From positions 1-64,000 of the forward strand of contig DAOWGM010000144.1 in assembly GCA_030637515.1 (NCBI GenBank): DNA of 64,000 bases, written 5' to 3'. Of the stretch, positions 1 to 33,421 are shown in pieces. A model generated the notes under the pieces. The model searched no databases and had not been told where the DNA came from. It saw only the letters and a list, made by a program, of their open reading frames with translations. Made by a program: the position numbers and the translations under genes. Every line of letters starts with the position of its first letter. Position 1 is the stretch's first letter. Source of the stretch: Bacteroidales bacterium (lineage in GTDB: Bacteria > Bacteroidota > Bacteroidia > Bacteroidales > UBA12077).

Positions 1-1214
1 CTGCACATAATTCCATGTAATTTAGTGTCAACTTCTTCTCTTGACCAGCTTAATTTCATTGAATTCTGTGACATCTCTAATCCTGAAGTTGCAACTCCAC
101 CTGCGTTAGCTGCTTTTCCCGGACCATATAACAATTTCGCTCCTTGAATTACTTCAATTGCTTCTGGCGTACATGGCATGTTTGCTCCTTCTGATACACA
201 AATACAGCCATTAGCTACCAATGCTTTTGCATCTTCTTCGTTCAATTCATTCTGAATTGCACATGGTAAAGCGATATCTACTTTTTGTTCCCATGGTCTT
301 TTACCTTCGTAAAACTGACCACTTTCGAACTCATAAGAATAAGGTTTTACTATATCGTTATTAGAAGCGCGAAGCTCTAACATATAATTGATTTTCTTTC
401 CTGAAATTCCTTCTGGATCATAAATATATCCGTCAGGACCTGAAATAGTAACAACTTTTGCTCCTAATTCTGTTGCTTTTAAAGCAGCACCCCATGATAC
501 ATTACCAAAACCTGAAATAGCAACTGTTTTTCCTTCAAAAGTTTCTCCTTTGGTTGCTAACATCTCTTTTGCAAAATATACATTACCGAAACCTGTTGCT
601 TCTGGACGAATTAAACTTCCACCCCAGTTACCACCTTTTCCAGTTAATACACCTGTATTTTCTCTTGCAAGTTTTCTGTACATTCCGAATAAGAAGCCAA
701 TCTCACGACCACCTACTCCAATATCACCTGCTGGAACATCAGTTTCTGGTCCAATTAGTCTCCATAATTCTGTCATGAATCCTTGGCAAAAACGCATTAC
801 TTCTGCATCTGATTTTCCTTTTGGATTGAAATCTGATCCACCTTTACCACCACCCATAGGTAATGTTGTTAGTGAATTCTTGAAGATTTGCTCGAATCCT
901 AAGAATTTTAATCCACTTAAATTAACACTTGGGTGAAAACGTAAACCTCCTTTGTAAGGTCCAATAGCGTTGTTAAACTGTACTCGGTAACCTAAGTTAA
1001 CGTTTACTTTTCCATCGTCACCAACCCAAGGCACCTTAAATGTTAAGATTCTGTCTGGCTCAACGATTCTTTCGATGATACCTGCTGCTTCGAATTGAGG
1101 ATTTTGATTGTAAATTTCCTCGATTGACTCTAAAACTTCGCGAACTGCCTGAAGATACTCTACTTCTCCAGGATGTTTCTGCTCCAACTGAAGCATTAAT
1201 TTATCTACGTTCAT
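1..1214 (-). CDS. gdhA: NADP-type glutamate dehydrogenase, C-terminus cut by window edge
   Basis: Reversible reductive amination of 2-oxoglutarate to glutamate, a cytoplasmic hexameric enzyme. Reading from ATG at 1214 gives about 404 residues with no stop before the edge. Family members are near 445 aa, so about 40 C-terminal residues are missing. Visible landmarks: substrate-binding lysine in GPYKGG (K88), K112, the catalytic lysine in GGGKGG (K124) followed by SDFNPKGKSD, and the nucleotide-binding turn SGFGNVSWGA near residue 235. The start has an AT-rich leader and no Shine-Dalgarno. A two-box Bacteroidota promoter lies about 62 bases upstream. The NADP preference is inferred from family resemblance and not proven here. 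Confidence 0.95.
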   Translation of the reverse strand, partial: MNVDKLMLQLEQKHPGEVEYLQAVREVLESIEEIYNQNPQFEAAGIIERIVEPDRILTFKVPWVGDDGKVNVNLGYRVQFNNAIGPYKGGLRFHPSVNLSGLKFLGFEQIFKNSLTTLPMGGGKGGSDFNPKGKSDAEVMRFCQGFMTELWRLIGPETDVPAGDIGVGGREIGFLFGMYRKLARENTGVLTGKGGNWGGSLIRPEATGFGNVYFAKEMLATKGETFEGKTVAISGFGNVSWGAALKATELGAKVVTISGPDGYIYDPEGISGKKINYMLELRASNNDIVKPYSYEFESGQFYEGKRPWEQKVDIALPCAIQNELNEEDAKALVANGCICVSEGANMPCTPEAIEVIQGAKLLYGPGKAANAGGVATSGLEMSQNSMKLSWSREEVDTKLHGIMC

Positions 1215-1535: not shown

Positions 1536-2366
1536 ATGGATTTTGATTCTATAAAACCATTACAGGAAAGAGCAAAAGAACTTCAATGTTTATATGAAAT
1601 TGAAAATGTATTTGCTGATAAAAATATTAGTTTTAATGATGTTTTCAATAAAATCCTTGAAATTATTCCAAATGGCTGGCAATTTCCTGCATTGTGTCAT
1701 GCAATAATTGAATTTGATAACAAACATTTTTTTTTAGAAAATTCTCAGGAATCAGAATATTCTCAATGCTCTGAATTAGTGGTTGATAATAGTATAGTAG
1801 GTAAAATAAAAGTGTATTATAAGGATATTCCTTTTAGTGGAGAATGTTTTTTGCCTGAAGAACAAAAGTTATTAAATTCGATTGCAGATCGTTTAAGTCT
1901 TTTTATTTTCCATAATAGACTGGGAAAAACTATTAAACTTTTATCTGAAAAAGCAGTTAAAAATGACAACGATCAATATCTTAAATCTTATAATGATGCG
2001 CATTGGAAATGGCGTTTTCGTATGTCTCAACTTATAGCTAAAAAAACGGATTTTGATTATTACGGATTAAATGCAATGTACGTAATAGGAAGCACTAAAG
2101 AAGCAAATGCTGGTCCTGCAAGCGATATTGACCTTTTAGTTCATTTTCAAGGAACTGAATCTCAGAAAAACCTTTTCAAATCGTGGATTGATGGCTGGAA
2201 TCATTCTTTGAGTGAATTAAATAAGGAGAAAACCGGATATAAATTAGATCAAGGATTAATCGATCTACATATAATTACCGATGAAGATATTAAAAACAGA
2301 ACCAGTTTTGCGGTAATGATTGGAAGTATTAATAATCCTGCACGCTTATTAAAAAAGAAGGAATAA
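1536..2366 (+). CDS. Sensor-domain nucleotidyltransferase
   Basis: A 276-residue protein with two parts, numbered from the ATG at 1536. An upstream in-frame ATG at 1506 would add ten hydrophobic residues that look untranslated. Residues about 5-128 form a GAF-like sensor module with hallmarks KELQCLYEIE, IPNGWQFP, GKIKVYY and an EEQKLLNSIADRL helix. The same module begins the minus-strand protein at 6214-9681. Residues about 170-276 form a nucleotidyltransferase fold: VIGSTKEANAG, then SDIDLLV with metal-binding D197 and D199, and a third acid in LIDLHI (D243). The phosphoesterase gene starts one base after the stop, so the two are probably cotranscribed and coupled. Known kin transfer NMP to proteins or small molecules. 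The target here is unknown. Confidence 0.75.
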   Translation: MDFDSIKPLQERAKELQCLYEIENVFADKNISFNDVFNKILEIIPNGWQFPALCHAIIEFDNKHFFLENSQESEYSQCSELVVDNSIVGKIKVYYKDIPFSGECFLPEEQKLLNSIADRLSLFIFHNRLGKTIKLLSEKAVKNDNDQYLKSYNDAHWKWRFRMSQLIAKKTDFDYYGLNAMYVIGSTKEANAGPASDIDLLVHFQGTESQKNLFKSWIDGWNHSLSELNKEKTGYKLDQGLIDLHIITDEDIKNRTSFAVMIGSINNPARLLKKKE

Positions 2367-2367
2367 C

Positions 2368-3210
2368 ATGAAATGCTTTTTTGTTTCAGACCTTCATGGT
2401 AAAATAAGCAGATTAGAAACACTATTTAATCAAATAGAAATTGATTCTCCTGATATTTTATTCATTGGAGGTGACATTTTTCCAAGTTTTCATTTGTTAA
2501 TAGAATATGATGATTTCATATTGGATTATCTAATACCCAAATTTCAAACCTTAAAATCTAAGTTAAAAGAAAAGTATCCTAAAATTTTTATCATTTTGGG
2601 AAATGATGATCCTAAAATAGAAGAAAACAAAATAATTCAAGGACAAAATCGAAGTCTGTGGGAATATGTACATAATAAAAAAGTTGAATTCAATAATTAT
2701 GTAATTTATGGTTATGCAAATATTCCCCCTACACCTTTTTTATTAAAAGACTGGGAGCGATATGATGTATCAAGATATGTTGATCCTGGCAGTGTACATC
2801 CAACCGAAGGGAAAAGAACAATAGAAGAAAAAGAAGATATTGAATACACCACAATTTATAATGACTTACAAGCATTAACAGGTAATGATAATTTAGAAAA
2901 GTCTATTTTTTTATTTCATTCACCTCCATATAAAACAAAACTTGACAGAGCAGATCTCGATGAACAAGTAATCGATCATGTGCCACTTGATGTTCATGTT
3001 GGAAGTATTGCTATTCAACGTTTTATTGAAGAAAGACAACCTTTACTAACGTTACATGGACATATTCACGAATCTTCAAGAATTACCGGAGACTGGAAAG
3101 ATAAATCCAATAATACATTAATGTTTTCTGCTGCCTATGAATTCCCAAAATTAGCAATTATTAAATTTGATTTAAACCACTTGGATAAAGCACAACGTTT
3201 TATTTTATAA
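2368..3210 (+). CDS. Calcineurin-like metallophosphoesterase
   Basis: A 280-residue predicted cytoplasmic hydrolase with no signal peptide or membrane segment. The dimetal site is complete: DLHG (D8, H10), GGD (34-36), GND (78-80), a histidine in FHSPP (H184) and GHIHE (231-235). The family hydrolyses phosphomonoesters, phosphodiesters or nucleotides, so the substrate cannot be read from sequence. It lies one base downstream of the sensor-nucleotidyltransferase and ends 14 bases from the end of the convergent receiver/ATP-grasp gene. This placement makes it a candidate for removing or degrading whatever the nucleotidyltransferase makes (inference). Confidence 0.8.
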   Translation: MKCFFVSDLHGKISRLETLFNQIEIDSPDILFIGGDIFPSFHLLIEYDDFILDYLIPKFQTLKSKLKEKYPKIFIILGNDDPKIEENKIIQGQNRSLWEYVHNKKVEFNNYVIYGYANIPPTPFLLKDWERYDVSRYVDPGSVHPTEGKRTIEEKEDIEYTTIYNDLQALTGNDNLEKSIFLFHSPPYKTKLDRADLDEQVIDHVPLDVHVGSIAIQRFIEERQPLLTLHGHIHESSRITGDWKDKSNNTLMFSAAYEFPKLAIIKFDLNHLDKAQRFIL

Positions 3211-3224
3211 TGAATTTAAGAATT

Positions 3225-6200
3225 CTATTCATTCTGCGGTTTAAGAATTACACCCTTTTTATTCTTCCCATCTATTTGTATTTGAATAGGTTTATTAAAA
3301 CGAATATGCCTAATATATTTATTTTCAAAATGCGGCTTATGACTTCCAAGGAAATCAAGATCATAAGATCCATCGTTGATATATGGATTAATAGTAAAAT
3401 AGCCTACTCTAAATGAAGTCAGGTTTTGAAAGAAATGCGTTCCCTGACTCGGATCAATTCTAAAATTCTCAAGACCAGATTCAACAATAACTCTTGCCTG
3501 TGAAATATTAGCCCATTTCACAGGTATTCCTAAACTCGGATCAGCAGATCCCCATCTTCCGGGCCCAACCAGAACATAATTTTTTTGTTCGTTTATAAAC
3601 TTTTCATTTAACACTCCAATCTCTGTTGCAATTTTTTCACTTTCTAATGATTTAAACGATTCTGGTTTTATATACACAAAATCATATATATCATCAATTC
3701 TTCCATTTCCTAAGGCTGATTCGCAATAAATTATTGTATTTTCCTTTACGACTTCATCCATATCAAAATCAGCAGATTGGTCAGTATCTACTATTGGTCG
3801 AATCTGTAGGAAATAAAATACATAAGGTTCATCTTTCTCAACATTTAAATCAACAGCAAACTCAATTTCAATCGGATTATTCATTTCTTTTTGACCTACT
3901 TCAAGCAAGCTTTTTAATATTTCGGCTAAGGGAAAGGCTTCATATTTAAGCACATTAGCAAATGTTACCACCCTTTTACCATCGTTTAATGTACCATCGC
4001 GTATAATATTATTCTGGAAATCGTAAGTTGAAGCTGCAAATCGAAAGGATGAATCTTTTTCTGCTGTTTTGATTTCGTCCTTTATTAAGTTTACGCCATC
4101 ATCAGATGATGGCGCAAATTTAGTAGGACACATATCTAATGCATAAAAATATTTCTGTGTATTCTTTAATGCCATATCCGGAGATGATAATTGCAGTATT
4201 TTTTTAGGGTGCTTAGGAGAAAATCGCAATGATATTCCTCCATCTACAATTTGTTTTCCTAAACCGTAGGCAATATTTACAATTCCATCTTCGGGTTTTT
4301 CAGGTTCAATAGGATAAAAATTTATTGACCGTGCTACTCCGGAAATTGTTGGATAAAATTTACTTCCATATTGTTTTCCACAAACCTCCTGCAATACTAT
4401 TCCCATTTTTTCCTCATCAATTACATTTGATGTTGCAGCCATATATGCTTTACTTGACTTAAAGTAAACCGATGCATAAACACATTTAATTGCATCCGAC
4501 AACATTTTTATCATTAAAGTACTATTCGTTGTTTTAGGAATCATATATGTAGAATAAATTCCTGCAAAAGGCTGATAATGCGAATCCTCCAACTTTGACG
4601 ATGATCGGATAGCAATTGGATTCTGTATGACTGAAATAAAGGCATATAAGTCCTGATATACTCTGCTGGGTAATTTTGCATCAACGAATTGTTTTACTAT
4701 TTCCTCATCGCTACTGTCTGACATTCCAATTTTATACAGATCATTTTCTTCCATAAATTCATCAAAAATATCTGTACTCAGAACAACAGTGCGAGGTATA
4801 GTTACAATTACTTTTTCGAATTTATTGAAAATTCTATTCTTATTTATAATGGAATTAATAAATGCTAATCCTCGCGCTTTACCTCCTATAGATCCATCTC
4901 CTATTCTTGAAAAGATCAAATATTCATCGAAATTACTTTTATCAAATTTTGCAATAACCCCCCTTCCCTTACTCATTCGATAACTTGAAATTGCTCTGTA
5001 TATATAAGTTCTTACTTCGGTTAAATTTTTAAAATCACTTACAGGAATATATTTGAATAATTGAGCTATTGGAAAGACAGCCCTGGCATTCAGCCATTTC
5101 GACAAATCATTTCTGCTTGCATGATACTCCAGTGTTCTATCAGGAATCGTGAGTATCATATGTTGTAAGGATTGAAGATCTGAAGCTCTTCCAATTTCCT
5201 TTAAGGTATCCGGATCGCGAAATATAAATTCGCCAAATGCAAACTGTCTTATGATATAATTTCTAAGCTCAATTGATAAGGTTTTTGAATATTTATGAAT
5301 AAAACCTACGTTAAGCTCATCTGCATACTTTTTATTATCCATATCAGATGATTGAAGAAGTAATGGCATAAACTCATCATCTTGCCTAACTTTCTTACAA
5401 AGTTTAATACCAGCTAATTTGTCCTTTATTCCCTTTCTTGGATATGTAATATCAGAAATAATACCAAGCATGTTATACTTATATTTCTCGTATAATTCCA
5501 TAGCTTGCTCATAATTTGTTGCTAAAAGAATTTTTGGACGACCACGCATACGAAGCATTCTTTGGTGCTCATTCAATGCTTCGCGCATATATTCTTTCGA
5601 TTGTTTAAATATTATCTTATAAATATTAGGGAGATATGTTGAAATATAACGAATAGAGTCTTCAACTAACAAAATTGTCTGGACACCCACAACCTCAACA
5701 TCGTACTGAACATTCATTCTATCCTCAATCAATTTAATAATTGCCAGCAAAATATCTGCGTTACCTAACCAACAAAAAACATAATCAATAGCACTTAAAT
5801 CCTCTTTCTCAAGCCGAATAGTTACTTCGCGGGAGAAATTAGTCAGAACTACGATTGGAATAGTTGGATAAATCGATTTTATTTGATTCGCGAATGTAAA
5901 AGTATCAGTATCACCAATTCTTAACATACTAACTACCAAGTCGATATTATCATCTTTTAAAATCCTAAAAGCTTCTTCTGATGAATTCGCCATAACAAAT
6001 ATCGGAGGATATCTAAGGTTTAATGCTACATACTCATTAAATATCTGCTCGTCAACCCGACCATCTTCTTCTAACATAAAAGAATCGTAGCTGCTTGAAA
6101 TAAGCAATACTTTATGAATTCTCTTCTGCATTAAAAGACTAAAAGAAGTGTCGTTAAAATCTAATCTTAAATTATCCTGGTGATTCGTATAAAAACTCAT
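3225..6200 (-). CDS. Tandem-receiver / PEP-synthase-type ATP-grasp protein (991 aa)
   Basis: Domains in order: a degenerate receiver (about 28-165) with Met92 where the phosphoacceptor Asp should be; an intact receiver (about 174-325) with E180/D181, D250, S284-S285 and K303, and about 50 extra residues between its first strand and second helix; a linker; a PPDK_N/PEP-synthase ATP-grasp domain (about 430-805) with GGKARGL (439-445), AIRSSS (530-535), LQEV and FLQIRPI; and a C-terminal domain with GPGRWGS (879-885) and GTHFFQN (920-926). The swivelling phosphohistidine domain (TSHxAI type) and the PEP-binding barrel are absent, so canonical PEP synthase activity is unlikely. It follows its larger paralogue after 13 bases, presumably in one operon. 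Automatic annotation would probably say PEP/pyruvate-binding protein. Confidence 0.75.
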   Translation of the reverse strand: MSFYTNHQDNLRLDFNDTSFSLLMQKRIHKVLLISSSYDSFMLEEDGRVDEQIFNEYVALNLRYPPIFVMANSSEEAFRILKDDNIDLVVSMLRIGDTDTFTFANQIKSIYPTIPIVVLTNFSREVTIRLEKEDLSAIDYVFCWLGNADILLAIIKLIEDRMNVQYDVEVVGVQTILLVEDSIRYISTYLPNIYKIIFKQSKEYMREALNEHQRMLRMRGRPKILLATNYEQAMELYEKYKYNMLGIISDITYPRKGIKDKLAGIKLCKKVRQDDEFMPLLLQSSDMDNKKYADELNVGFIHKYSKTLSIELRNYIIRQFAFGEFIFRDPDTLKEIGRASDLQSLQHMILTIPDRTLEYHASRNDLSKWLNARAVFPIAQLFKYIPVSDFKNLTEVRTYIYRAISSYRMSKGRGVIAKFDKSNFDEYLIFSRIGDGSIGGKARGLAFINSIINKNRIFNKFEKVIVTIPRTVVLSTDIFDEFMEENDLYKIGMSDSSDEEIVKQFVDAKLPSRVYQDLYAFISVIQNPIAIRSSSKLEDSHYQPFAGIYSTYMIPKTTNSTLMIKMLSDAIKCVYASVYFKSSKAYMAATSNVIDEEKMGIVLQEVCGKQYGSKFYPTISGVARSINFYPIEPEKPEDGIVNIAYGLGKQIVDGGISLRFSPKHPKKILQLSSPDMALKNTQKYFYALDMCPTKFAPSSDDGVNLIKDEIKTAEKDSSFRFAASTYDFQNNIIRDGTLNDGKRVVTFANVLKYEAFPLAEILKSLLEVGQKEMNNPIEIEFAVDLNVEKDEPYVFYFLQIRPIVDTDQSADFDMDEVVKENTIIYCESALGNGRIDDIYDFVYIKPESFKSLESEKIATEIGVLNEKFINEQKNYVLVGPGRWGSADPSLGIPVKWANISQARVIVESGLENFRIDPSQGTHFFQNLTSFRVGYFTINPYINDGSYDLDFLGSHKPHFENKYIRHIRFNKPIQIQIDGKNKKGVILKPQNE

Positions 6201-6213
6201 ACAATTTCATTTA

Positions 6214-9200
6214 TTAATTATCATTGCTCCATGTAATCGCCGAAAACCTTTTCCGCCCATCCATTGTAATTGTTAAAGGCTTTTTAAATTCTATATGTTT
6301 AAAGTATTTCGATTCACTAACAACTTTTTGTTTATTCAAGACTTCCCAAGCTATCCTATCTTTAATTGATTTATGATCAACTGAAAAATATCCAACATTC
6401 ATGGATGTTACATTATGAAAAAAGTGTGAACCTAATGAAGCATCTAAATTAAACTCATTTAGACTCATCTCGACAATAATTTTAGCATTTGATATTTGCG
6501 GCCAAGCAACAGGAATACCAATAAATCTATCTCTAGTCCCCCAACGTCCGGGACCTATTAAAATATATTTTTTACCTGCCTCCTGCATTCTTTGATTCAT
6601 CTCATCAATCTCATCTTTCATCTCCATTGTTTTGGTATTATCAAACTTCTCAGGCATAACAAATATTACATCTTTTATATTTTGAATTTTTCCATTACCC
6701 ATCGTTTTTTCTGAATACAATACGAGATGCTCTTTGTCAATTTTATTAACATCAACATGATAATCATCTTCATGACAAACTAGTGGTTTTATTTGTAATA
6801 AATAAAAGGAAGCCAATCCGCTTTTATCCTTAGTAAGATCAACTGCAAATTCTATTTCTACAGGTGATCCCAACGCTTCTTTTACAACATCAAGAATTAC
6901 ATTGATCGTTTTTGCTAATGGAATATATTCATATTTTAAAATATTAGCAAAATTTACTATTCTTGGTCCATAAGAATCAAGTCCAGGACTAACTCTGTCA
7001 TTTTCCGGGTCATAAACTGAGGCTAAATGTTTTAAGGTTCCATGCTTTTCTGACTCATCAATATCCAACCTGATTAATCCAGCATCTTCACCCTCAAGTA
7101 AATTAATATCTTCTTTATCAAAATTAACGGCATAAAAATAAACCTGAGATCCCTTATATAAATCCTTTGTCGAAACAATCTCCAGGTTAGGATAGCTTGG
7201 AGAAAATCTAAACGCTTTTTCTCCTTCAACAACATACTGACCAAGACCCAGTGCTGCCACGGCAAAGCCCTCATCGGGTTTCATATGTGCAACCGGATAG
7301 AAATTATGCGATTGGGCTGTTCCGCTAATATGTGGATAGTAATACTTATCAAACTGTTGCCCTACAACCTCCTGTAAAACAACTGCCATTTTTTCTTCTT
7401 CAACTTTATAATCTATCGCTTTGAAATAGGTTCTTGCATTCTTTGAATATATAGAAACAAATACCAGTTTTATTGCATCCATTAACTGTTTCAATCGTTG
7501 TTCAAAATCTACATGATTATTTGGAAGAATATAAGTTTCAAAAATTCCTGAGAAAGGTTGATTAATACTGTCTTCAAATAAACTGGATGATCTTACTGCA
7601 ATAGGCTTTGTTATTAATTTCAGAAATATTTTTAATTTTTTCTTTAATGAATATGAGAGCTCACCTGCCAGAAAATCTTTTCTCAATTCACTATAATCTG
7701 ATATATCATGTATTTTATCTACCAAATGATTACTTTCAATAAATATATCAAACTCTTCGGTTCCAATTATACTTGTTTTAGGAGTTCTAACATTTATAAG
7801 CGGAAGTAATTCCTTAAACTTGAAATTGTAAATTAAAGTATTTACAAATGCCAATCCACGACCTTTGCCCCCTAATGCACCCGGAGCTAGGCTAACAATG
7901 TTATTTTCTTCTAATACTGCAGCCTCATTAAAATTAACGATTTTACCTTTTTCCTGCTCATTTCTATAAAGCCTTAAAATATTGATAAGAAAATCTCTTA
8001 GCTGATTTGGGCTTTTAAAATCGGATATTTTCAGTGGATTAATAATTTTAGCTATCTGTATTTCTCCTCTTGCCATTAACCACAATGAAAATTGATTCTT
8101 TACTGCATGATATATCAGAGAATCTTCCGGGACTGTTTTTAAGAATGACTCAAATTCAAGCATTGATTTTGCTACTGCAATTTGTCGTCCCTGGTTATCG
8201 CGATAAACAAAATGTCCAAATCCCAAATGGTAGTTAATAAAACTTTTAAGATCTTGCAATAAACTCTCCGAATTCTTATTTATAAAATTTGACTTTATCT
8301 CATAAGCTTTCTTTGCATTCTCAGGATCTGAAGATTGAAGAACTGTTGGTAAATTCAAAACATTCTCTTTAATAAATTTTACTAATTCAAATCCTGCATT
8401 ATTATTTAGCTTATTGTTTTTTGGAAAACAAACATCAGAAATTACACATAAAAAATAATCTTTATACTGATTAAAAATCCCCATAGCTTCTTCATAATTA
8501 TGAGCTAAGAGAATTTTTGGTCGTGCACGCATCTTCAACACTTTATACAAATCATCGGTATTAACATCCTCAATAAGTCGCTGCGTTTGCTCCATAATAA
8601 TTTTATAAAGCATTGGTAAGTATCGCGAATAATATTTAGGTGAATCTTCTACTAATAATATTATTCGTGTTAATCCTATTTTTGTATCATTATCTGCATT
8701 TACCATGTCTTCAATAAGCTTTACCATGGCAAAAAATACTTTTGAATCTCCGTTCCAAATAAAAATTTTATCAATATCTTTTAAATCCCTTTTTTCTTCT
8801 TCGAGAACAGCTAAATCGCTATTATTATTTAATAAAAGAAAAGTTGGAATATATTGATATTTATCTTTGATAGTGCCTGCGATCTTTAAAGGTGTTTTTT
8901 TATCAACACCCATCATTAAAATTACAAGATCGTAGTGTTTATTTTCAAGGGCTTCAATAGTTTCATCTTCATTTGAAACACCTGTAACACGTGGCAAAGA
9001 AGTTAGGTTTAGTTGATGGTACTCTCCTAAAATATGCTCAGAAAAGCGACCTTCTTTTTCAATGCTATATGCATCGTACAAATTCGCAACAAGGAGAATT
9101 TCCTTAACCTTAAATGGCATTAGATCATGTAATAGATCTCTATCGGCATTATGTTTATTTAGAAATTTCTGTAGTAGTTGTCTGCTATTTAAAATCTTTT

Positions 9201-9681
9201 TAGATCCGTCCTTCTCAGATTTTTTTAATTCTTTCTTTTTATCATTTTTCCATATTATTTCTTTGGCTTTAATACTATTTAAAAACCCCAATAGTAAATT
9301 AGACAAATTTAGAATTAGATCTCGCTCTTCTTTTAGAAATGGTCCTTCATATAAACGAGGAAACATTTTCAAATAATATATTTCAATGGATCCCTCATCT
9401 CCATCAATTGTTTGAAAATTCTGTTTTTGAGACCATTCAGTTTCTTTGAAATCAGGACTTCTGAATTCGTGTCCACCAAATACAATTCTTGAAACAGTAT
9501 AATCAGGATACTGCCATGCTTTTGGTAGGCGCAGCGTAACCTTTTGAAGAGTTTCTTCAACTGATTTACCTTCTTTAATTATTTTCGTAGTTTCGTTAAT
9601 ACAAGCAAGTTCTTTTAATCTTTCTTTGTTTTCGGCTAAGAGCTTGTTTATATCATTATTTTGGTTGGATTGATCAGCCAT
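6214..9681 (-). CDS. Sensor / tandem-receiver / ATP-grasp protein (1155 aa)
   Basis: Paralogue of the downstream 991-aa protein with an added N-terminal sensor. I prefer ATG 9681 (MADQSNQ) over 9729, which would add 16 unlikely residues. From 9681: a GAF-like sensor (about 15-135) with KELACINE, LPKAWQYP, GSIEIYY and LKEERDLIL; a charged linker; a degenerate receiver (about 190-330) with Met instead of Asp in DLVILMM; an intact receiver (about 340-480) with E345/D346, D416, S450 and K469; a PPDK_N-type ATP-grasp domain with GGKGRGL (604-610), AVRSSS and LLQIKPL; and the C-terminal GPGRWGT (1043-1049) and GSHFFHN region. No phosphohistidine or PEP-binding domain follows. The sensor matches that of the convergent nucleotidyltransferase, which links the two transcription units. 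It is likely cytoplasmic because it lacks membrane segments. Confidence 0.75.
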   Translation of the reverse strand: MADQSNQNNDINKLLAENKERLKELACINETTKIIKEGKSVEETLQKVTLRLPKAWQYPDYTVSRIVFGGHEFRSPDFKETEWSQKQNFQTIDGDEGSIEIYYLKMFPRLYEGPFLKEERDLILNLSNLLLGFLNSIKAKEIIWKNDKKKELKKSEKDGSKKILNSRQLLQKFLNKHNADRDLLHDLMPFKVKEILLVANLYDAYSIEKEGRFSEHILGEYHQLNLTSLPRVTGVSNEDETIEALENKHYDLVILMMGVDKKTPLKIAGTIKDKYQYIPTFLLLNNNSDLAVLEEEKRDLKDIDKIFIWNGDSKVFFAMVKLIEDMVNADNDTKIGLTRIILLVEDSPKYYSRYLPMLYKIIMEQTQRLIEDVNTDDLYKVLKMRARPKILLAHNYEEAMGIFNQYKDYFLCVISDVCFPKNNKLNNNAGFELVKFIKENVLNLPTVLQSSDPENAKKAYEIKSNFINKNSESLLQDLKSFINYHLGFGHFVYRDNQGRQIAVAKSMLEFESFLKTVPEDSLIYHAVKNQFSLWLMARGEIQIAKIINPLKISDFKSPNQLRDFLINILRLYRNEQEKGKIVNFNEAAVLEENNIVSLAPGALGGKGRGLAFVNTLIYNFKFKELLPLINVRTPKTSIIGTEEFDIFIESNHLVDKIHDISDYSELRKDFLAGELSYSLKKKLKIFLKLITKPIAVRSSSLFEDSINQPFSGIFETYILPNNHVDFEQRLKQLMDAIKLVFVSIYSKNARTYFKAIDYKVEEEKMAVVLQEVVGQQFDKYYYPHISGTAQSHNFYPVAHMKPDEGFAVAALGLGQYVVEGEKAFRFSPSYPNLEIVSTKDLYKGSQVYFYAVNFDKEDINLLEGEDAGLIRLDIDESEKHGTLKHLASVYDPENDRVSPGLDSYGPRIVNFANILKYEYIPLAKTINVILDVVKEALGSPVEIEFAVDLTKDKSGLASFYLLQIKPLVCHEDDYHVDVNKIDKEHLVLYSEKTMGNGKIQNIKDVIFVMPEKFDNTKTMEMKDEIDEMNQRMQEAGKKYILIGPGRWGTRDRFIGIPVAWPQISNAKIIVEMSLNEFNLDASLGSHFFHNVTSMNVGYFSVDHKSIKDRIAWEVLNKQKVVSESKYFKHIEFKKPLTITMDGRKRFSAITWSNDN

Positions 9682-9976: not shown

Positions 9977-10996
9977 TTAAACTTCCCAGGTAGTTCCGCT
10001 CTTTAACAAATCGTCAACACAATTAAGCGAAGATTTTGCTTTTACTTCTTCAACTTGTTTTTGAACGGCTCCATCATAAGTTTGAGCCTTAACACCTCTA
10101 ATTACACCAAAAGCTACAGGATGTTCTGGATACTGCATATTAGCTAACATCAAATGTAATCCTGGATTTACAGTTTCTGAATTATGAACTAATAAATCTT
10201 TTTCTGAATATTCACCACCTAATTCAACAACCTTAAGTTTTAAATTCTCAGTGTCAAGAATTAAACCTTTATCTCTGTTAGTTCCAAAGATCATTGGTTC
10301 TCCATGTCTTAAAACAATAGTACGGTCTGCTTTGTGTTCTCTGTCTGATATAGCTGCATGCGTTTTATCATTATAAATAACACAGTTCTGTAGAACCTCA
10401 ACTACTGTTGCACCATGATGTCTCCCTGCCTGAAGAAATATTTCCTGACATAACTTAATATTACTGTCAATTGATCTTGCAAAGAATTTCCCTTGTGCTC
10501 CAATTACCAATTCACCAGGATGAAATGGATGTTCAACAGTTCCGTAAGGAGAAGTTTTTGTTACTGATCCAAATTGAGATGTAGGAGAATATTGTCCTTT
10601 TGTAAGACCATATATCTCATTATTAAACAAAATAATATTTAAGTCTATATTTCTTCTAATTGCATGTATAAAATGGTTACCTCCAATTGCCATAGCATCA
10701 CCATCACCAGTAATTTGCCAAACGTTTAGATTTGGATTTGCAACTTTCACACCTGAAGCAATAGCTGATGCCCGACCGTGAATACTATGAAAACCATATG
10801 TATTCATATAATAAGGGAATCGAGAAGAACAACCAATACCAGAAATAAAGGCAAAATCTTCTTTTTTAGTATCTAAGTCAGGTAAAGCTCTTTGTATGGC
10901 ATTCATTATTGCATGATCACCACAACCAGGACACCATCTAACTTCCTGGTCACTTTTAAAATCCTTTGGAGTATATAAGTTTTGTGTTTCAGCCAT
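9977..10996 (-). CDS. korB: 2-oxoacid:ferredoxin oxidoreductase, beta subunit
   Basis: TPP-binding subunit of the enzyme that interconverts 2-oxoglutarate (or another 2-oxoacid) and its acyl-CoA using ferredoxin. The 339 residues show WCPGCGDH with Cys22 and Cys25, a further Cys56, and the TPP/Mg motif GDGDAMAIGGNH followed by an NNEIYGLTKGQ segment. These cysteines, with one more further on, normally hold a 4Fe-4S cluster. It lies two bases after korA. Assignment to 2-oxoglutarate instead of pyruvate rests on the two-subunit architecture, and the substrate cannot be fixed from sequence alone. No separate ferredoxin-like delta subunit is present nearby. Confidence 0.9.
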   Translation of the reverse strand: MAETQNLYTPKDFKSDQEVRWCPGCGDHAIMNAIQRALPDLDTKKEDFAFISGIGCSSRFPYYMNTYGFHSIHGRASAIASGVKVANPNLNVWQITGDGDAMAIGGNHFIHAIRRNIDLNIILFNNEIYGLTKGQYSPTSQFGSVTKTSPYGTVEHPFHPGELVIGAQGKFFARSIDSNIKLCQEIFLQAGRHHGATVVEVLQNCVIYNDKTHAAISDREHKADRTIVLRHGEPMIFGTNRDKGLILDTENLKLKVVELGGEYSEKDLLVHNSETVNPGLHLMLANMQYPEHPVAFGVIRGVKAQTYDGAVQKQVEEVKAKSSLNCVDDLLKSGTTWEV

Positions 10997-10998
10997 GA

Positions 10999-12846
10999 TT
11001 AATCCTCCAATATTTTTTCAAAATGTTCTTCTAATTCGATAATTGTAAATGGTAATCCCTGTACTTTATTATACTGTAAATATTTGAATTCAGGATTAGT
11101 CATTCTTAAATAATCTGCAAATTGTCCCATATTATTTTCGCAAACTACTATTTTATTAAACTTGCTAAAAACGTCTTTAACATTCAACGGTAAAGGTTTA
11201 ATATAATTAAAGTGAGCAAGGCTTACTTTTTTACCCTTAGCCTGTATCTGACTTACTGCTGTAGCAACATGACCATATGTTCCACCCCATCCAACAACAA
11301 GTAATTCTCCAGATTCTTCACCTTCAACTTTAAGTTTAGGAATTGTATTGGCAATTCTTTGCACTTTTTCTTCACGAATATCAATCATCTTTTGATGATT
11401 CATCGGATCATGAGAAACTGCACCTGTTAATTCATCTTTTTCAAGTCCACCAATTCTATGCTCTAAACCTTTTGTGCCAGGAACTGCCCATGTTCTTGCA
11501 AGCTTCTCAGCATCTCTTGCATAAGGTTGCCAGTTTTCTGTTCCTTCTTTAACTACTGGAGCATTTATTTCAGGATACTCAGACATTAGCGGAATTCGCC
11601 ATGGTTCTGATCCATTCGCAATAAATCCATCAGTTAATAAAATAACTGGTGTCATATGTTCTACTGAAATCCTTGCAGCTTCAAAAGCATAATGGAAACA
11701 ATCAGAAGGAGTACTTGCAGCAATAACTGCTACTGGACTTTCTCCGTTTCTTCCATATAACGCTTGCATTAAATCTGATTGTTCAGGTTTTGTTGGTAAA
11801 CCAGTTGATGGTCCACCTCTTTGTACGTTTACAATAACTAATGGCAACTCTGTCATAACTGCCAAACCAATTGCCTCCGCTTTAAGTGCTAAACCAGGTC
11901 CAGATGTTGTGGTAACAGCAAGATCTCCAGCAAAACTAGCTCCGATAGAAGTACAAATACCTGCTATTTCATCTTCAGCCTGAAATGTTTTGACTCCAAG
12001 ATCGTTTCTATTAGAAAGTTCCTGTAAAATTTCAGTTGCAGGAGTTATAGGGTATGAACCACAAAACAATTCCAAATTAGCTTTTTCAGCTGCAGCAATA
12101 AAGCCCCAAGCTGTTGCTAAGTTTCCATTTATATTTCTGTATGTTCCACTTTCGATCTTAGCAGGACTGATCTTATACGATGGAGTCAAGTGTTCCATTG
12201 TTTCGGCATAATTGTATCCTGCCCTTAAAACAGTTTTGTTAGCATCAATAACAAGAGGTTTCTTTTTAAATTTCTTCTCAAAGAATTCTTCAGTATAATT
12301 TAACGGACGATCAAAGATCCAGTATACCATACCAAGAGCAAACATATTTTTACTTCTAAGTATACTTTTAGGATCAAGACCCATATCTTTTAAAGCTTCT
12401 TTTGTTAATGAGCTAATCGGAGCTTCAATTATATTATAACCATCAAGTTTGTCTTCTTTAATAGGATCTTCAGTTTTATATCCTGCTTTTTTCAATCCCT
12501 TTTCGTCAAAACTGTCTTCATCAATTATAATTGTTCCGCCTTCTTTCACCCATTTAGCTGTTGCTTTTAGCGCAGCGGGGTTCATAGCAATTAAAATATC
12601 GGCATAATCGCCAGGAGTTTTAATTGCAGTTTGTCCAACATGTACCTGGAATCCTGACACTCCTCCAACAGTGCCTTGTGGGGCTCTAATTTCTGATGGA
12701 TAATCAGGAAACGTGGAAAGATCATTTCCAATAAATGCCGAAGTATCTGAAAACAGATTTCCGGTAAGTTGCATACCATCTCCGGAATCGCCCGAAAACC
12801 TTATAACGACCTCTTCGCGTTCGATGGCACCTGCTTTTTTACTCAT
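10999..12846 (-). CDS. korA: 2-oxoacid:ferredoxin oxidoreductase, fused gamma-alpha subunit
   Basis: A 615-residue partner of korB. Residues about 8-200 are the gamma domain (FSGDSGDGMQLTGNLF near the start), which binds CoA and helps catalysis. Residues about 215-615 are the pyrimidine-binding alpha domain, with GSYPITPATEILQELS, an EDEIAG segment, TTTSGPGLALKAEAIG and QRGGPSTGLPTKPEQSDL. This gamma-alpha fusion is typical of the two-subunit Kor/OGOR enzymes of Bacteroidota and archaea. Its leader carries a long stem-loop at 12893-12930. With korB it forms a simple two-gene operon ending at the terminator at 9926-9958. Confidence 0.9.
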   Translation of the reverse strand: MSKKAGAIEREEVVIRFSGDSGDGMQLTGNLFSDTSAFIGNDLSTFPDYPSEIRAPQGTVGGVSGFQVHVGQTAIKTPGDYADILIAMNPAALKATAKWVKEGGTIIIDEDSFDEKGLKKAGYKTEDPIKEDKLDGYNIIEAPISSLTKEALKDMGLDPKSILRSKNMFALGMVYWIFDRPLNYTEEFFEKKFKKKPLVIDANKTVLRAGYNYAETMEHLTPSYKISPAKIESGTYRNINGNLATAWGFIAAAEKANLELFCGSYPITPATEILQELSNRNDLGVKTFQAEDEIAGICTSIGASFAGDLAVTTTSGPGLALKAEAIGLAVMTELPLVIVNVQRGGPSTGLPTKPEQSDLMQALYGRNGESPVAVIAASTPSDCFHYAFEAARISVEHMTPVILLTDGFIANGSEPWRIPLMSEYPEINAPVVKEGTENWQPYARDAEKLARTWAVPGTKGLEHRIGGLEKDELTGAVSHDPMNHQKMIDIREEKVQRIANTIPKLKVEGEESGELLVVGWGGTYGHVATAVSQIQAKGKKVSLAHFNYIKPLPLNVKDVFSKFNKIVVCENNMGQFADYLRMTNPEFKYLQYNKVQGLPFTIIELEEHFEKILED

Positions 12847-26817: not shown

Positions 26818-27861
26818 ATGAGCACATTATATCCATTAAAATTCAAACCTATATTTAAAGAGAAAATATGGGGTGGGCAAAATTTAAAGTCATCATTAAA
26901 TAAAGATATACCTACAAACAAAAAACTTGGTGAAAGTTGGGAAATATCGGGAGTTAAAAATAATGTTTCTGTTGTAGAAAATGGTTTTCTTGCAGGTAAT
27001 GAGCTTGATGAGTTGATAGAAATTTACATGGGCGATTTGGTTGGTGATAAGGTTTATGATAAACATGGATTAGTTTTTCCTTTGCTTATTAAATTTATTG
27101 ACGCGAATGATGTGCTTTCAATTCAAGTTCATCCGGATGATAAATTAGCAAAGCAACGTTACAATTCAAACGGAAAAACAGAAATGTGGTATATTGTTGA
27201 AGTGCAAAAAGATGCTGAATTAATTTCGGGATTTAATCACGAAATGGATAAGGATCATTATTTAAATCATTTAAAAAACAATGAGTTACCTCAAATATTA
27301 AATACCGAAAAAGTTAAACAAGGCGATGTTTTTTACATTCCTGCAGGTAGAGTTCATGCAATTGGTGCAGGAATTGTTTTGGCTGAAATTCAGCAAACCT
27401 CGGATGTAACATACCGAATTTTTGACTGGAACAGAAAAGATGATGCCGGGAATTACCGGGAATTGCATACCGAGAAAGCAATTGATGCAATTGACTTTAA
27501 GGTTTATGATAATTATAAAACAGAATACAAATCAGACCAAAATAAAACCTCAGAAATTGTTTCAACTAAATATTTTGAAACCAATATTCTAAATTTTAAC
27601 AAGAGTATTGAGAAAGATTATAATACTTTAGATTCGTTTGTAATTTATATGTGCCTCGAAGGCAAATTTGAAATTGAATATTACGAATCGGAAAAGATTA
27701 CAATTGAAAAAGGTGAAACTGTGTTAATTCCTTCGGTAATCGAACATTTATTTTTAAATCCTGTTGTTCAAAGTAAGATATTAGAAGTATACATACCTGA
27801 ACCTGAAAAAAATAAGAAACGGGATTCTTTAATCACAATCCCGTTTCAAATAATTTACTGA
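26818..27861 (+). CDS. manA: Mannose-6-phosphate isomerase, class I cupin type
   Basis: Interconverts mannose 6-phosphate and fructose 6-phosphate for mannose use and GDP-mannose supply. The 347 residues contain PIFKEKIWGGQNL, the zinc-binding IQVHPDD and a Glu shortly after in KTEMWYIVE, the PAGRVHAIGAGIVLAEIQQTSDVTYRIFDW block in segments, and a C-terminal cupin (ETVLIPSVIEHLFL). The length fits the shorter bacterial ManA group. The last seven codons overlap the convergent gene by seven bases. A hairpin terminator for that gene lies inside the end of this coding region. Confidence 0.93.
   Translation: MSTLYPLKFKPIFKEKIWGGQNLKSSLNKDIPTNKKLGESWEISGVKNNVSVVENGFLAGNELDELIEIYMGDLVGDKVYDKHGLVFPLLIKFIDANDVLSIQVHPDDKLAKQRYNSNGKTEMWYIVEVQKDAELISGFNHEMDKDHYLNHLKNNELPQILNTEKVKQGDVFYIPAGRVHAIGAGIVLAEIQQTSDVTYRIFDWNRKDDAGNYRELHTEKAIDAIDFKVYDNYKTEYKSDQNKTSEIVSTKYFETNILNFNKSIEKDYNTLDSFVIYMCLEGKFEIEYYESEKITIEKGETVLIPSVIEHLFLNPVVQSKILEVYIPEPEKNKKRDSLITIPFQIIY
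27806..27847 (-). terminator. Intrinsic terminator for the 1828-aa gene, inside manA
   Basis: An 11-bp perfect stem, GAAACGGGATT (27816-27826) with its complement (27837-27847), has a ten-base loop. On the minus strand it is followed by TTA and then seven T (27806-27812). It lies within the last 56 bases of manA coding sequence, just past the stop of the convergent gene. The plus strand has no T-run after the stem. Confidence 0.75.
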
Positions 27862-30800
27862 ACAATTATTTCTCTGACAAACAACTTGTTATCAATTTTA
27901 AATCTGATAAAATAAACTCCATTAGCATAACTGCTAAAATCAATATTTTCTATTGAGCTTGAAATATTTTCCAATTTTCTATTGTAAACAATACTTCCAT
28001 TTACATTTACAATTTCAATTATTATATCCGAATTTTTTGCATTGGCAAATTCAATGTTTAGATTTTCAGAAACTGGATTAGGATAATATGTAATTTTAAA
28101 TGTTTCACCTTTTATTATATTATCTACTCCAGTTGTGTTTTCACAATATATCTCACCTATTCCTTCGCAATCGTCAATTGTTGTTACCGTTACTTTATAT
28201 GTTCCTGTTGTAGTAACAATAATTGTTCTTGTGGTTTCTCCTGTTGACCACTTATAACTGTCATATGTATCTAAAGTTCCTCCAATCTCAGTGCTACCCG
28301 TAAAAAACACAGTATCAGAACCTAAATCTACGTATGGCGCATTTATATTAACATCTTGTATCAAGGCATCATCTGTATCTGCATCGTTATTTGTTTTTCT
28401 CGATATAATAGAAAACTCATATCCCTTACTTACTGATAAGTTCGCTGTTTGAGTAAACTCGAACTCACCAACACTATCAGGGTAAAGAGGTTCAGTTAGT
28501 ATGAATGATCCGGATTTTAAACTTCCGGAATTTATTGAATAACTAAAACTTAAAGATTCTCCAGCTAACAATGTGTCCTGGCTATTATTAATATAGCCGA
28601 TTTTAACTGGTTCAGAATCTGATGCATTACACTGATTATATGGATATGGATTTATTAATGAATCTGTTGTGATATTATATGTGTACAAATCCATAGTATC
28701 GCTTGCTGTACAACCATTAATATCAGTGACGGTTACTGAATAAGACTTAGAAGCCAAGTAAGTAACAATTAATGAATCATTCTTTGTTCCGTCGTTCCAA
28801 ACATAATTATTAAATCCCCCAGATGCTATAATAATAACTGTATCAGGTTGTGTTGTATATATATCAGGACCTGCCTGTACAGCAGGATTACTGTATGTCC
28901 TTATGCCTTCAATAATAGTATCGTTTAAAAGATATACATCATTTTCATAATTAATATATGTTTTTAATATGTAGGTATTAACTACTGACAGATCAACGGT
29001 GTTTATAAACTGATGTGTAATAGTCCCGGAAGGAAACAAATCTGTTAATAATGTAATTTGTTCATATTCTGGCACGTTATCTTCAAATTTATAATAAGCA
29101 TCAATCTTTTCTCCCGATAAAATGGTATCCTGACCATAATTCTTAATAATTATTTTAACCAGTTCTGCATCATTATGAGAACATGAACTCTTTGGCAGAT
29201 TTAATTCAGATATTCCAAGATCATAAGCAATAATTTGTGTTGAATCTTTACTGGATTTACATCCATGAAGGTCATCCGCTGAAACTATGTATTTTTTTGT
29301 ATATTTCTTTGTTACAACAAGTGTATCATTTTCTGTTCCATCATTCCACATATAATTTGTAAACCCGGTTTGAGCAATCAGTAATACAGTATCTGCCCTA
29401 CTTGTATAAATAGTATCATAGTCGAGGGTAACCTCCGGATAACCCCATGTTTCAATGGATGTTTCAATACTGTCATTAGCAGAGTTTACATCGGTTTCTG
29501 AGTCAAGCTTTATTTTAAGTGGATATTCTCCCGGCACAATCAGATCAATATTTTTTGTAAAAGTCAGATCTTTATCCACACCCGGGCTAAAATCACTACC
29601 TAAGGTAACAGTATCATTTTCCCAAGTACTGTTAAAATAATATTTAAAAGGGATTTTTGTTCCTATAGCATAGGTATTGCCACTGTAGTTATGCACTGAA
29701 ACCTGTATTACCTCATTGGAAGTATGTTCACATTCACTTACAGGACTAACAACACTATTTATTCCTAAATCGTAAGTTTCAATATATGTTGAATCTTTAT
29801 CTGAACTACAAAATTGAGAATCTTCTACTGTTACCACATACCATCGAGTTTCTTTAGTAGGAGTAATAGTTTGTGTTGTAGAATCCACATTCCATAAGTA
29901 TGAACCATAACCTGCACCAGCATCCAAAGTGATTGTATCAGCCTGCGATGAGAAAATTGAATCAAATTCTAACTCTACATCAGGGCCTCCCCAAGTATCT
30001 ATATTAAAATATAATGTATCATCTGAAAGATCCAAGTCTTCATCAAAATTTGTAAAAATCTTAATATTATATTGTCCAACATTTCTCAAATCACATTTTT
30101 CTGCAAAAGTAAATAAAACAGTATCACCCGGAGGGCTTGCAGTTAATGTATCTGTTAGAATCAATGTGTCTGCTACAATTAGATTATCATTTATTTGATA
30201 ACCAAAATAAATTGAGTCGTCAGTACTAAAACCATCCAAACTATTATTAACAGCTTGCACACTTATTTCTGTAAGCTCATATCTATAACAGCTATCTTTT
30301 AGTTCAATTAATACGCTATCCATTGTCATATTCACAAGAGAACTTACAAGTAAGGTAGTATCCGAAGCACTACAACCATCTGCATTTGTAACAGTAACTT
30401 TGTAAGTTCCAACAGATGTAGCTGTAAAAGTGGGGTCTGATGATGCATCTTGCCATTCATATGAACTATAACCTGCTCCAGCATCTAATATATAATTAAT
30501 AGGCGTAGTTGTTCCTGTAATATCTTCAAAAGGATTATAATTCGGCATTCCAATTACCGAAACTGTTTTATTTAATGTATCGTTGCTCAATGTATCATTA
30601 TAGAAAAAAGTATTAGATTCTAAATTTGTATTAATTATAAAATTATAATCTCCTGCATACGACATATCAACCGTTGAATTAAAAGTAAACAAGACTGAGT
30701 CGTTAACAGGAATATCGCCGGTTAGCTCTAAGGTGTCATAAACTATTTCTGTATTTAAATTAAGCTCAACCGGAATTTTTGTTCCACTGATAACATTGTT

Positions 30801-33341: not shown

Positions 33342-33421
33342 AACTTGTCTATTAATTTTGGAACATCTTTGTAAGTAATACGTTATAATTTTAAAATAGT
33401 TTATCATCAAAGAGTCAATTT

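Follow-up and report, generated by a model that had tools for sequence, protein, structure and literature searches.

Gene content of the locus

The window, by which we mean the whole stretch of 64,000 nucleotides that was analysed, is the start of contig DAOWGM010000144.1 in the 4.1 Mb genome of a Bacteroidales bacterium (assembly GCA_030637515.1). Its first genes are, in this order, a glutamate dehydrogenase (GDH, minus strand), a nucleotidyltransferase with a sensor module (NT, plus), a metallophosphoesterase (MPE, plus), two receiver-linked ATP-grasp proteins of the phosphoenolpyruvate (PEP) synthase type (AG2 and AG1, both minus) and two genes resembling the subunits of a 2-oxoacid:ferredoxin oxidoreductase (OorB-like and OorA-like, both minus) (Table 1). 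We lean slightly towards reading this locus as a control module for GDH, the core of which is the receiver-linked ATP-grasp protein that tends to pair with a GDH of its own.

A sequence-only reading of the four genes from NT to AG1 had described NT and MPE as plus-strand genes with a single base between them, convergent with AG2 and AG1 on the minus strand, and both the coordinates and the Pfam matches agree with this description (14 bases separate the end of MPE from the end of AG2). That reading had further confined a putative signalling circuit to these four proteins. It overlooked GDH and the oxidoreductase pair, both of which lie outside its coordinates, and the confinement is not supported, as it is GDH that accompanies the ATP-grasp protein most constantly. 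The window GDH reaches 755 bits with the NCBIfam model PRK14030 (cut-off 743), and a second GDH of the same genome lies beyond the window (G000:C41:1770-3029, L253). For NT the ATG at 1536 was used in the alignment, the longest open reading frame (ORF) opening at a TTG at 1506, and the ORF of AG1 continues to 9729.

Table 1. Features of the locus, with positions counted from the first nucleotide of the window.
Feature	Position	Strand	Basis or remark
GDH, cut at contig end, divergent from NT	1..1214	-	Pfam ELFV_dehydrog 258.3 bits, ELFV_dehydrog_N 169.8 bits
NT: GAF sensor and nucleotidyltransferase, 276 aa	1536..2366	+	NTP_transf_2 23.3 bits, cut-off 21 (Pfam)
GAF-like sensor module of NT	1560..1955	+	conserved in alignment of NT homologues
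NT active-site stretch GSTKEANAGPASDID	2088..2132	+	third acidic residue, D243, lies further on
MPE: calcineurin-like metallophosphoesterase, 280 aa	2368..3210	+	PF00149 Metallophos 49.1 bits, cut-off 21.5
AG2: REC1, REC2, linker, PPDK_N ATP-grasp, conserved C-terminal domain, 991 aa	3225..6200	-	PPDK_N 139.3 bits, cut-off 27
C-terminal domain of AG2 with GRWG and GxHFF motifs; H922 at 3435-3437	3228..3788	-	alignment
PPDK_N-type ATP-grasp domain of AG2	3789..4913	-	Pfam, alignment, structure match
REC2 of AG2, intact receiver (E180, D181, D250, K303)	5226..5684	-	alignment and structure match
REC1 of AG2, aspartate-less receiver	5751..6119	-	alignment of AGs
AG1: GAF, REC1, REC2, DUF5752-like linker, PPDK_N ATP-grasp, C-terminal domain	6214..9681	-	PPDK_N 125.5 bits
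OorB-like, 2-oxoacid:ferredoxin oxidoreductase beta subunit	9977..10996	-	PorB_KorB 240 bits, below cut-off 261.9
OorA-like, 2-oxoacid:acceptor oxidoreductase alpha subunit	10999..12846	-	TIGR03710 661.6 bits, cut-off 482.75

Architecture and conserved residues of the ATP-grasp proteins

With the Pfam model Response_reg (cut-off 30.2) AG2 passes at 41.9 bits and AG1 does not at 19, and the linker of AG1 stays at 19.3 bits below the DUF5752 cut-off of 23. A search of PDB sequences with AG2 returned only two receiver matches, at E 0.067 and 0.085. The predicted structure of AG2 (pLDDT 86.6, pTM 0.80) matches receiver structures over residues 172-325 with Z of about 14-16, and its REC2 superimposes on the receiver of ComE (4mld; Z 16.1, rmsd 2.2, 128 aligned residues). 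Counted over 39 aligned sequences, after exclusion of nine short AGs that contain no receiver domains, REC1 never has an aspartate in the phosphoacceptor column, four archaeal sequences having one a column further on. REC2 is the intact receiver that the sequence-only reading had seen: the column of the phosphoacceptor D250 is aspartate and that of K303 lysine in 39/39, and the second acidic residue is D in 36 and N in 3 sequences.

The ATP-grasp residues K441, R532, E778, E780 and Q799 (AG2 numbering) are invariant in all 48 AGs, and so is H922 of the C-terminal domain. The best structural matches of AG2 are 5hv1, 5hv3 and 2ols; its ATP-grasp domain aligns with rifampin phosphotransferase 5hv1 at Z 26.7 (rmsd 2.8, 286 residues). 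The isolated ATP-binding domain 5hv6 covers residues 412-804 only, and residues 418-989 of the model align on residues 4-467 of PEP synthase 2ols (Z 25.9, rmsd 4.3, 362 residues), a span that presumably reaches the region of the swivelling His domain in PEP synthase. Pfam comparison at E up to 1 gave neither a PEP-utilizer His domain (PF00391) nor a PEP/pyruvate-binding domain in AG1 or AG2, and the NCBIfam model PEP_synth scores the AGs at 29 and 36 bits, where its cut-off is 739.75.

Association of the ATP-grasp proteins with glutamate dehydrogenase

Neighbourhoods were compared in three samples, which overlap in that some genomes belong to all of them: 59 genomes around the window, 53 loci obtained by scanning one genome per species for the NT domain, and 296 genomes of the phylum. 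GDH was identified by Pfam or NCBIfam for the window, L069 and L144 and by similarity elsewhere. In 16 of the 53 species-scan loci (L068 holds a partial 17th) a GAF domain, a diverged ATP-grasp domain (AG') and the NT domain are fused in a single ORF of 1040-1100 aa; the taxa that their records name are Melioribacteraceae, Ignavibacteria, Acidobacteria, Aminicenantes and Thermoplasmata/Thermoplasmatota or Euryarchaeota archaea. AG' is 27-33% identical to the grasp region of AG2 and also contains the C-terminal domain of the AGs (hhalign 99.9%). A second AG lies directly upstream of the fusion in 16/16, yet in only 11/18 fused loci of the phylum sample. A chance meeting of the GAF, ATP-grasp and NT domains is very unlikely. 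Because these domains are fused in other phyla, mostly beside MPE and a second AG, the idea of one functional unit in the sequence-only reading gains support, although the four-gene arrangement on which it was built is not widely conserved.

When the ORFs around the 53 loci were clustered, GDH was the widest-spread family from outside the module, occurring at 16 loci in bacteria and archaea; the other recurrent families were of Bacteroidales type only or, for two oxidoreductase families, archaeal only. At 16 of the 53 loci (41 have enough sequence) and at 15 of the 18 fused loci of the phylum-wide sample, GDH and the module are no more than 1.5 kb apart. Among fused loci of the species scan with enough flank it stands beside the module in 15/15, a count that excludes L068, L073, L075 and L076 (contig ends or fragments): ten are seen directly, and for the other five (L071, L077, L079, L080 and L082) contig arithmetic places GDH some 10 bases away from the frame of AG, under the assumption that the contig is the locus's own. 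In L066 the GDH lies on the MPE side. From the 296-genome sample 40 ordinary-AG regions were taken, a set that leaves out the window and G093 (AG in L158, GDH 68 bp away). GDH is no further than 1.5 kb from AG in 32 of them, and in 34 of 44 regions when four AG' regions are added; the nearest GDH is on the same strand as AG in 32 and on the opposite strand in 2, at a median gap of 84 bp. The ordinary-AG regions with no GDH in this range are L194, L195, L209, L210, L217, L220 (2346 bp), L221 and L225, and the AG' regions are L228 and L229. As a control, GDH was compared with the other neighbouring families of these loci: GDH occurs at 35/44 loci and the next commonest family at 10/44. Copies of AG and GDH can also interleave, in the order GDH-AG-GDH-AG-GDH in L216 and similarly in L200, L203 and L207. 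The five genes of the L216 array (L216:4056-14546) share one strand, and their frames overlap in part or are at most 120 bases apart.

Presence and absence agree with this neighbourhood. With at most four AG and five GDH candidates scored per genome, AG' was found in 22 of the 296 genomes and a GDH at least 68% identical to the GDH of L144 in those same 22; among the matches listed the next GDH drops to 51%, and the cut at 68% was chosen after this gap had been seen. The chance of such a match between AG' and the GDH clade is 10^-33 if genomes are taken as independent, which they are not. Four families (f49, f51, f64 and f69) include members with both AG' and the GDH clade and members with neither, so that the two were probably gained or lost together on more than one occasion. 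They co-occur even in G254 and G345, where AG' and GDH lie on separate contigs.

That these associations are inherited gene order devoid of functional meaning is an explanation that we disfavour and regard as highly improbable. Many genomes within each sample are related, the samples overlap, and further families that recur as neighbours (those of L047-L061 and L083 among them) do not, going by record titles, extend beyond Bacteroidales or Bacteroidetes; but no other family is as widespread as GDH, AG paralogues differ in the GDH paralogue with which they pair, and presence and absence agree also inside the four families named above.

The main rival explanation takes AG as a metabolic enzyme that is co-expressed with GDH and carries out a phosphorylation or ligation of a compound which GDH consumes or makes (2-oxoglutarate or glutamate), the receivers and the GAF domain regulating AG itself. 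We rate it as unlikely. Relatives with PPDK_N domains do use small molecules (PEP synthase, rifampin phosphotransferase, the prodigiosin ligase PigC), and in the window a 2-oxoacid:ferredoxin oxidoreductase adjoins AG1; against this, AG1 and AG2 have no PEP/pyruvate-binding or PEP-utilizer match, the interleaving of AG and GDH copies in several loci fits a dedicated partner, and AG' shares its polypeptide with a sensor and an NT domain. OorAB was also considered as a general partner of AG and rejected: of the 52 order-level AG loci 12 have it within 1.5 kb, as against 0/53 and 0/18 loci of the other two sets.

The nucleotidyltransferase and the metallophosphoesterase

In a search of the window's own genome NT residues 10-146 match AG1 at E 7.1e-8, which bears out the earlier observation that one sensor module is present on both transcription units. 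Pfam GAF did not match this module by sequence in the NT, AG and fused proteins scanned, but its fold is recognisable: the same module in the fused archaeal protein of L069 (residues 17-152, modelled) aligns with 3cit (Z 13.0, rmsd 2.5, 126 residues) and with the GAF domain of NifA, 8jrc (Z 11.7, rmsd 2.5, 116 residues). In 15 aligned full-length NT homologues, the window included, G185, S186, D197, D199 and D243 are invariant in 15/15; we take this GS...DxD...D set to be catalytic, as in the nucleotidyltransferase superfamily. MPE likewise keeps D8, H10, D36, N79, H184, H230 and H232 in 15/15 aligned homologues, presumably as metal ligands, and no solved structure matches MPE by sequence within E 0.001.

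Pfam matches of NT and the fused proteins are limited to NTP_transf_2, Polbeta and weak others. The DUF294 type, one of those that the sequence-only reading had named, finds no backing, as no DUF294 nucleotidyltransferase, CBS or cNMP-sensor family matched in Pfam at E up to 1, and GlnE repeats and GlnD HD or ACT domains were matched neither in NT (Pfam, E up to 1) nor in the fused proteins (E up to 0.1). A PDB sequence search with the NT domain gave a best match of only E 0.024. The model of the fused archaeal protein is weaker (pLDDT 69.8, pTM 0.51), and no nucleotidyltransferase stands among the 50 structure alignments listed for it. Foldseek, applied to the same model, returned MNT antitoxins (best 8xeh_E, E 8.2e-3) and other small nucleotidyltransferases at E of about 0.01 or weaker; the matches to its NT part comprise small nucleotidyltransferases and aminoglycoside nucleotidyltransferases and no cyclases, and the title of one of them, 7ae9, names an AMPylated HEPN. 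MntA AMPylates a protein.

These matches raise the question whether NT is an MntA-like toxin-antitoxin nucleotidyltransferase that stands here by accident, which we find hardly credible. Its sole NCBIfam match is indeed MntA (NF047752), and the MNT antitoxins appear among the Foldseek matches, but the score of 17.9 bits is far below the cut-off of 60, the neighbour is MPE in 15/15 and 49/53 loci, and the NT domain is fused to AG'.

Of the 59 genomes around the window, 57 have AG-type proteins, 17 have MPE and 15 have a full-length NT, the last count having been read by hand from the search results. NT-MPE adjoins an AG in only three of these 15 (G000, G016 and G057), which partly contradicts the expectation that homologues of the four genes are neighbours; the four-gene neighbourhood was therefore dropped as a sole argument, and the case is built on the fusion and on the linkage to GDH. 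In L015, L041 and L042 the order AG1-NT-MPE-AG2 is found on a single strand, followed by GDH in L041 and L042. The link between NT and MPE itself is close: MPE lies within 500 bp of NT in 15/15 loci of relatives, 49/53 of the species-wide scan and 11/18 of the phylum sample, and in the 49 it is on the same strand in 34 and on the opposite strand in 15. In the 296 genomes of the phylum the NT domain was found in 19 (E up to 1e-8) and MPE in 12 (E up to 1e-30), and all 12 carry NT with MPE adjoining it. Individual loci vary: in G017 (L136:7558-10705) NT-MPE converges with a GDH of its own, the AG pair and another GDH lying elsewhere (L093), and in L010 a rubrerythrin-like ORF, judged by eye, lies immediately upstream of NT (L010:897-1415).

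At two loci the slot of NT-MPE is occupied by a GAF-like plus Crp-like protein of 378-382 aa that converges with AG2 (L016:862-2007 and L017:1441-2574); the one in L016, where GDH is on the far side, matches cNMP_binding and HTH_Crp_2 in Pfam. The genomes concerned, G036 and G050, have no NT-domain and no MPE match. A further ORF of 382 aa with the same sensor accompanies NT in G057. The replacement in G036 and G050, together with the joint occurrence of MPE and NT in most genomes that have either, could mean that AG, GDH or transcription is under the control of a nucleotide second messenger, made by NT and destroyed by MPE. We judge this to be quite unlikely, given that the Crp-like proteins there can read no NT product where NT and MPE have no match, and that the Foldseek matches to the NT part of the fused model are small and aminoglycoside nucleotidyltransferases rather than cyclases.

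Proposed mechanism and its weighing

How a module of this kind would act on GDH can be outlined as follows. AG would spend ATP at its intact ATP-grasp site on autophosphorylation, with H922 of the C-terminal domain as the probable acceptor, and would then pass the phosphate to GDH or otherwise toggle GDH between an active and an inactive state. Phosphorylation of REC2 and binding of a ligand to the GAF domain, perhaps 2-oxoglutarate as a guess, may set the direction. NT, which elsewhere is fused to AG', may contribute an optional second layer by attaching a nucleotide to AG or to GDH, and MPE may take this nucleotide off again. As a whole, the proposal that a receiver-gated ATP-grasp enzyme is a dedicated modifier of GDH with phosphate from its own histidine, and that a fused or neighbouring NT and phosphoesterase add and remove a nucleotide mark in many lineages, is offered tentatively, as a possibility of less than even weight. 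Enzymes of the PEP-synthase type are not known to modify proteins in signalling. That GDH is the target of the module, rather than an enzyme regulated together with it, is something that we infer.

Several observations weigh against these proposals. Neighbourhood and co-occurrence amount to association, not to action on GDH. GDH is also far more common than AG, occurring in 271 of the 296 genomes against 49, numbers for which at most the best four (AG) or five (GDH) candidates per genome were scored, so that absences are not watertight; AG would thus be an added control and not a requirement for GDH. In the order-level sample only 21 AG loci have GDH within 1.5 kb, out of 52 (39 of them with enough sequence) that come from 47 of the 57 genomes with AG (G000, G001, G002, G004, G005, G008, G009, G016, G019 and G024 were left out), and L160 and L161 have AG'-NT with no adjacent GDH. 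A search for residues specific to AG-paired GDHs, comparing 71 paired with 21 other GdhA-type sequences, yielded one M/L position only; one of the 22 comparison loci yielded nothing that could be used, the second GDH of the window's genome is one of the 21, among the other genomes only G060, G070, G099 and G107 were seen to lack AG, and the paired set has duplicates from the same genome. For the C-terminal domain of AG there is no credible PDB sequence match, and homology to the His domain of pyruvate phosphate dikinase (PPDK) was not found (hhalign 0.1%). A phosphohistidine at H922 is accordingly put forward as a hypothesis, based on invariance and on the structural span, the profile comparison being negative.

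Further points concern the nucleotide layer. Four of the 22 AG' proteins have no recognisable NT, two with an apparently decayed NT (G067, G242) and two that end before NT and give no GAF match (G167, G218). Seven of the 19 genomes with NT in the phylum sample gave no MPE match, and the pairing of NT with MPE that the sequence-only reading had assumed, which stands for most loci in the distance counts, fails in G019 and G029 of the 59 relatives, where MPE occurs and no full-length NT was matched. NT and MPE thus look like an optional layer whose parts usually come together. All four genomes with NT-less AG' nevertheless keep the GDH clade, so that the ATP-grasp protein rather than NT looks like the core, and ATP-grasp protein and GDH together look like the core of the module.

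Other features of the window and of related loci

In L226 (5615-8695) and L227 (5193-8444) the C-terminal part of AG' resembles a decayed nucleotidyltransferase, in which the GS and DxD motifs are gone, and GDH is still adjacent. Genes for FAD/NAD-binding and GltD-like oxidoreductases, similar to NfnAB, lie near the module in L071 (7320-9577), and related ORFs are present in L079, L080 and L082 and partly in L075 and L076 (archaea). Further along the window, at 27855-39775, lie two divergent giant ORFs, one of 1851 aa and the other of 2117 aa, 11 bases apart.

Relation to known systems and significance

Covalent marks that control nitrogen assimilation are textbook knowledge for glutamine synthetase, with GlnE as its adenylyltransferase and GlnD as the uridylyltransferase of PII. 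The module described here resembles GlnE and GlnD in logic only, namely in a nucleotidyltransferase fold and a sensor beside an enzyme of nitrogen assimilation, combined with a reversing activity; it differs in that GDH takes the place of that enzyme, an ATP-grasp protein forms the core and reversal is proposed to fall to a separate metallophosphoesterase, and in that the GlnE and GlnD domains were not matched in NT or the fused proteins. AG shares with PEP synthase, PPDK and rifampin phosphotransferase an ATP-grasp domain with invariant K, R, E, E and Q; unlike PEP synthase and PPDK it has receivers and a GAF domain, its own C-terminal domain with GRWG and GxHFF, and no PEP-utilizer or PEP/pyruvate-binding match. 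With MntA-HepT (type VII toxin-antitoxin) NT has the small nucleotidyltransferase fold in common, but its score stays below the MntA cut-off and its usual neighbour is MPE.

The combination of receiver and PPDK domains is in print. One census reports a receiver-PPDK "Bacteroides-like combination" in three Heimdallarchaeota (PMC5847659), another describes aspartate-less receivers as highly associated with pyruvate phosphate dikinase effectors, which it ties to plant C4 metabolism (PMC4395418), and a Desulfovibrio study on nitrate resistance mentions a response regulator gene adjoining a PPDK-like gene (PMC4001038). AG1 and AG2 of the window fit the receiver plus PPDK-type architecture with an aspartate-less receiver of these census regulators, whose entries, in the portions available, give no partner genes or function (PMC5847659, PMC4395418). 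Glutamate dehydrogenase is not mentioned in the main text of PMC5847659, and among the titles and abstract beginnings listed in searches of an open-licence library none describes a GDH link or a GAF-ATP-grasp-NT fusion. Added here to the known architecture are the pairing with GDH, the fusion GAF-AG'-NT and MPE. What is new is apparently the system with GDH and not the receiver-PPDK architecture, and this newness hinges on GDH as the target.

GDH joins or splits the carbon of 2-oxoglutarate and the nitrogen of ammonium, and the module is probably a control system common to bacteria and archaea that tunes the making or burning of glutamate. If this holds, receiver-PPDK proteins, which the papers cited above treat as census entries, would gain a partner and a testable role, and it would be asked why a dead and a live receiver are kept together. 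A dedicated set of enzymes that modify GDH in bacteria of the Bacteroidota group and in archaea would be new, and it would place a control system shared by bacteria and archaea at the junction of 2-oxoglutarate and glutamate.

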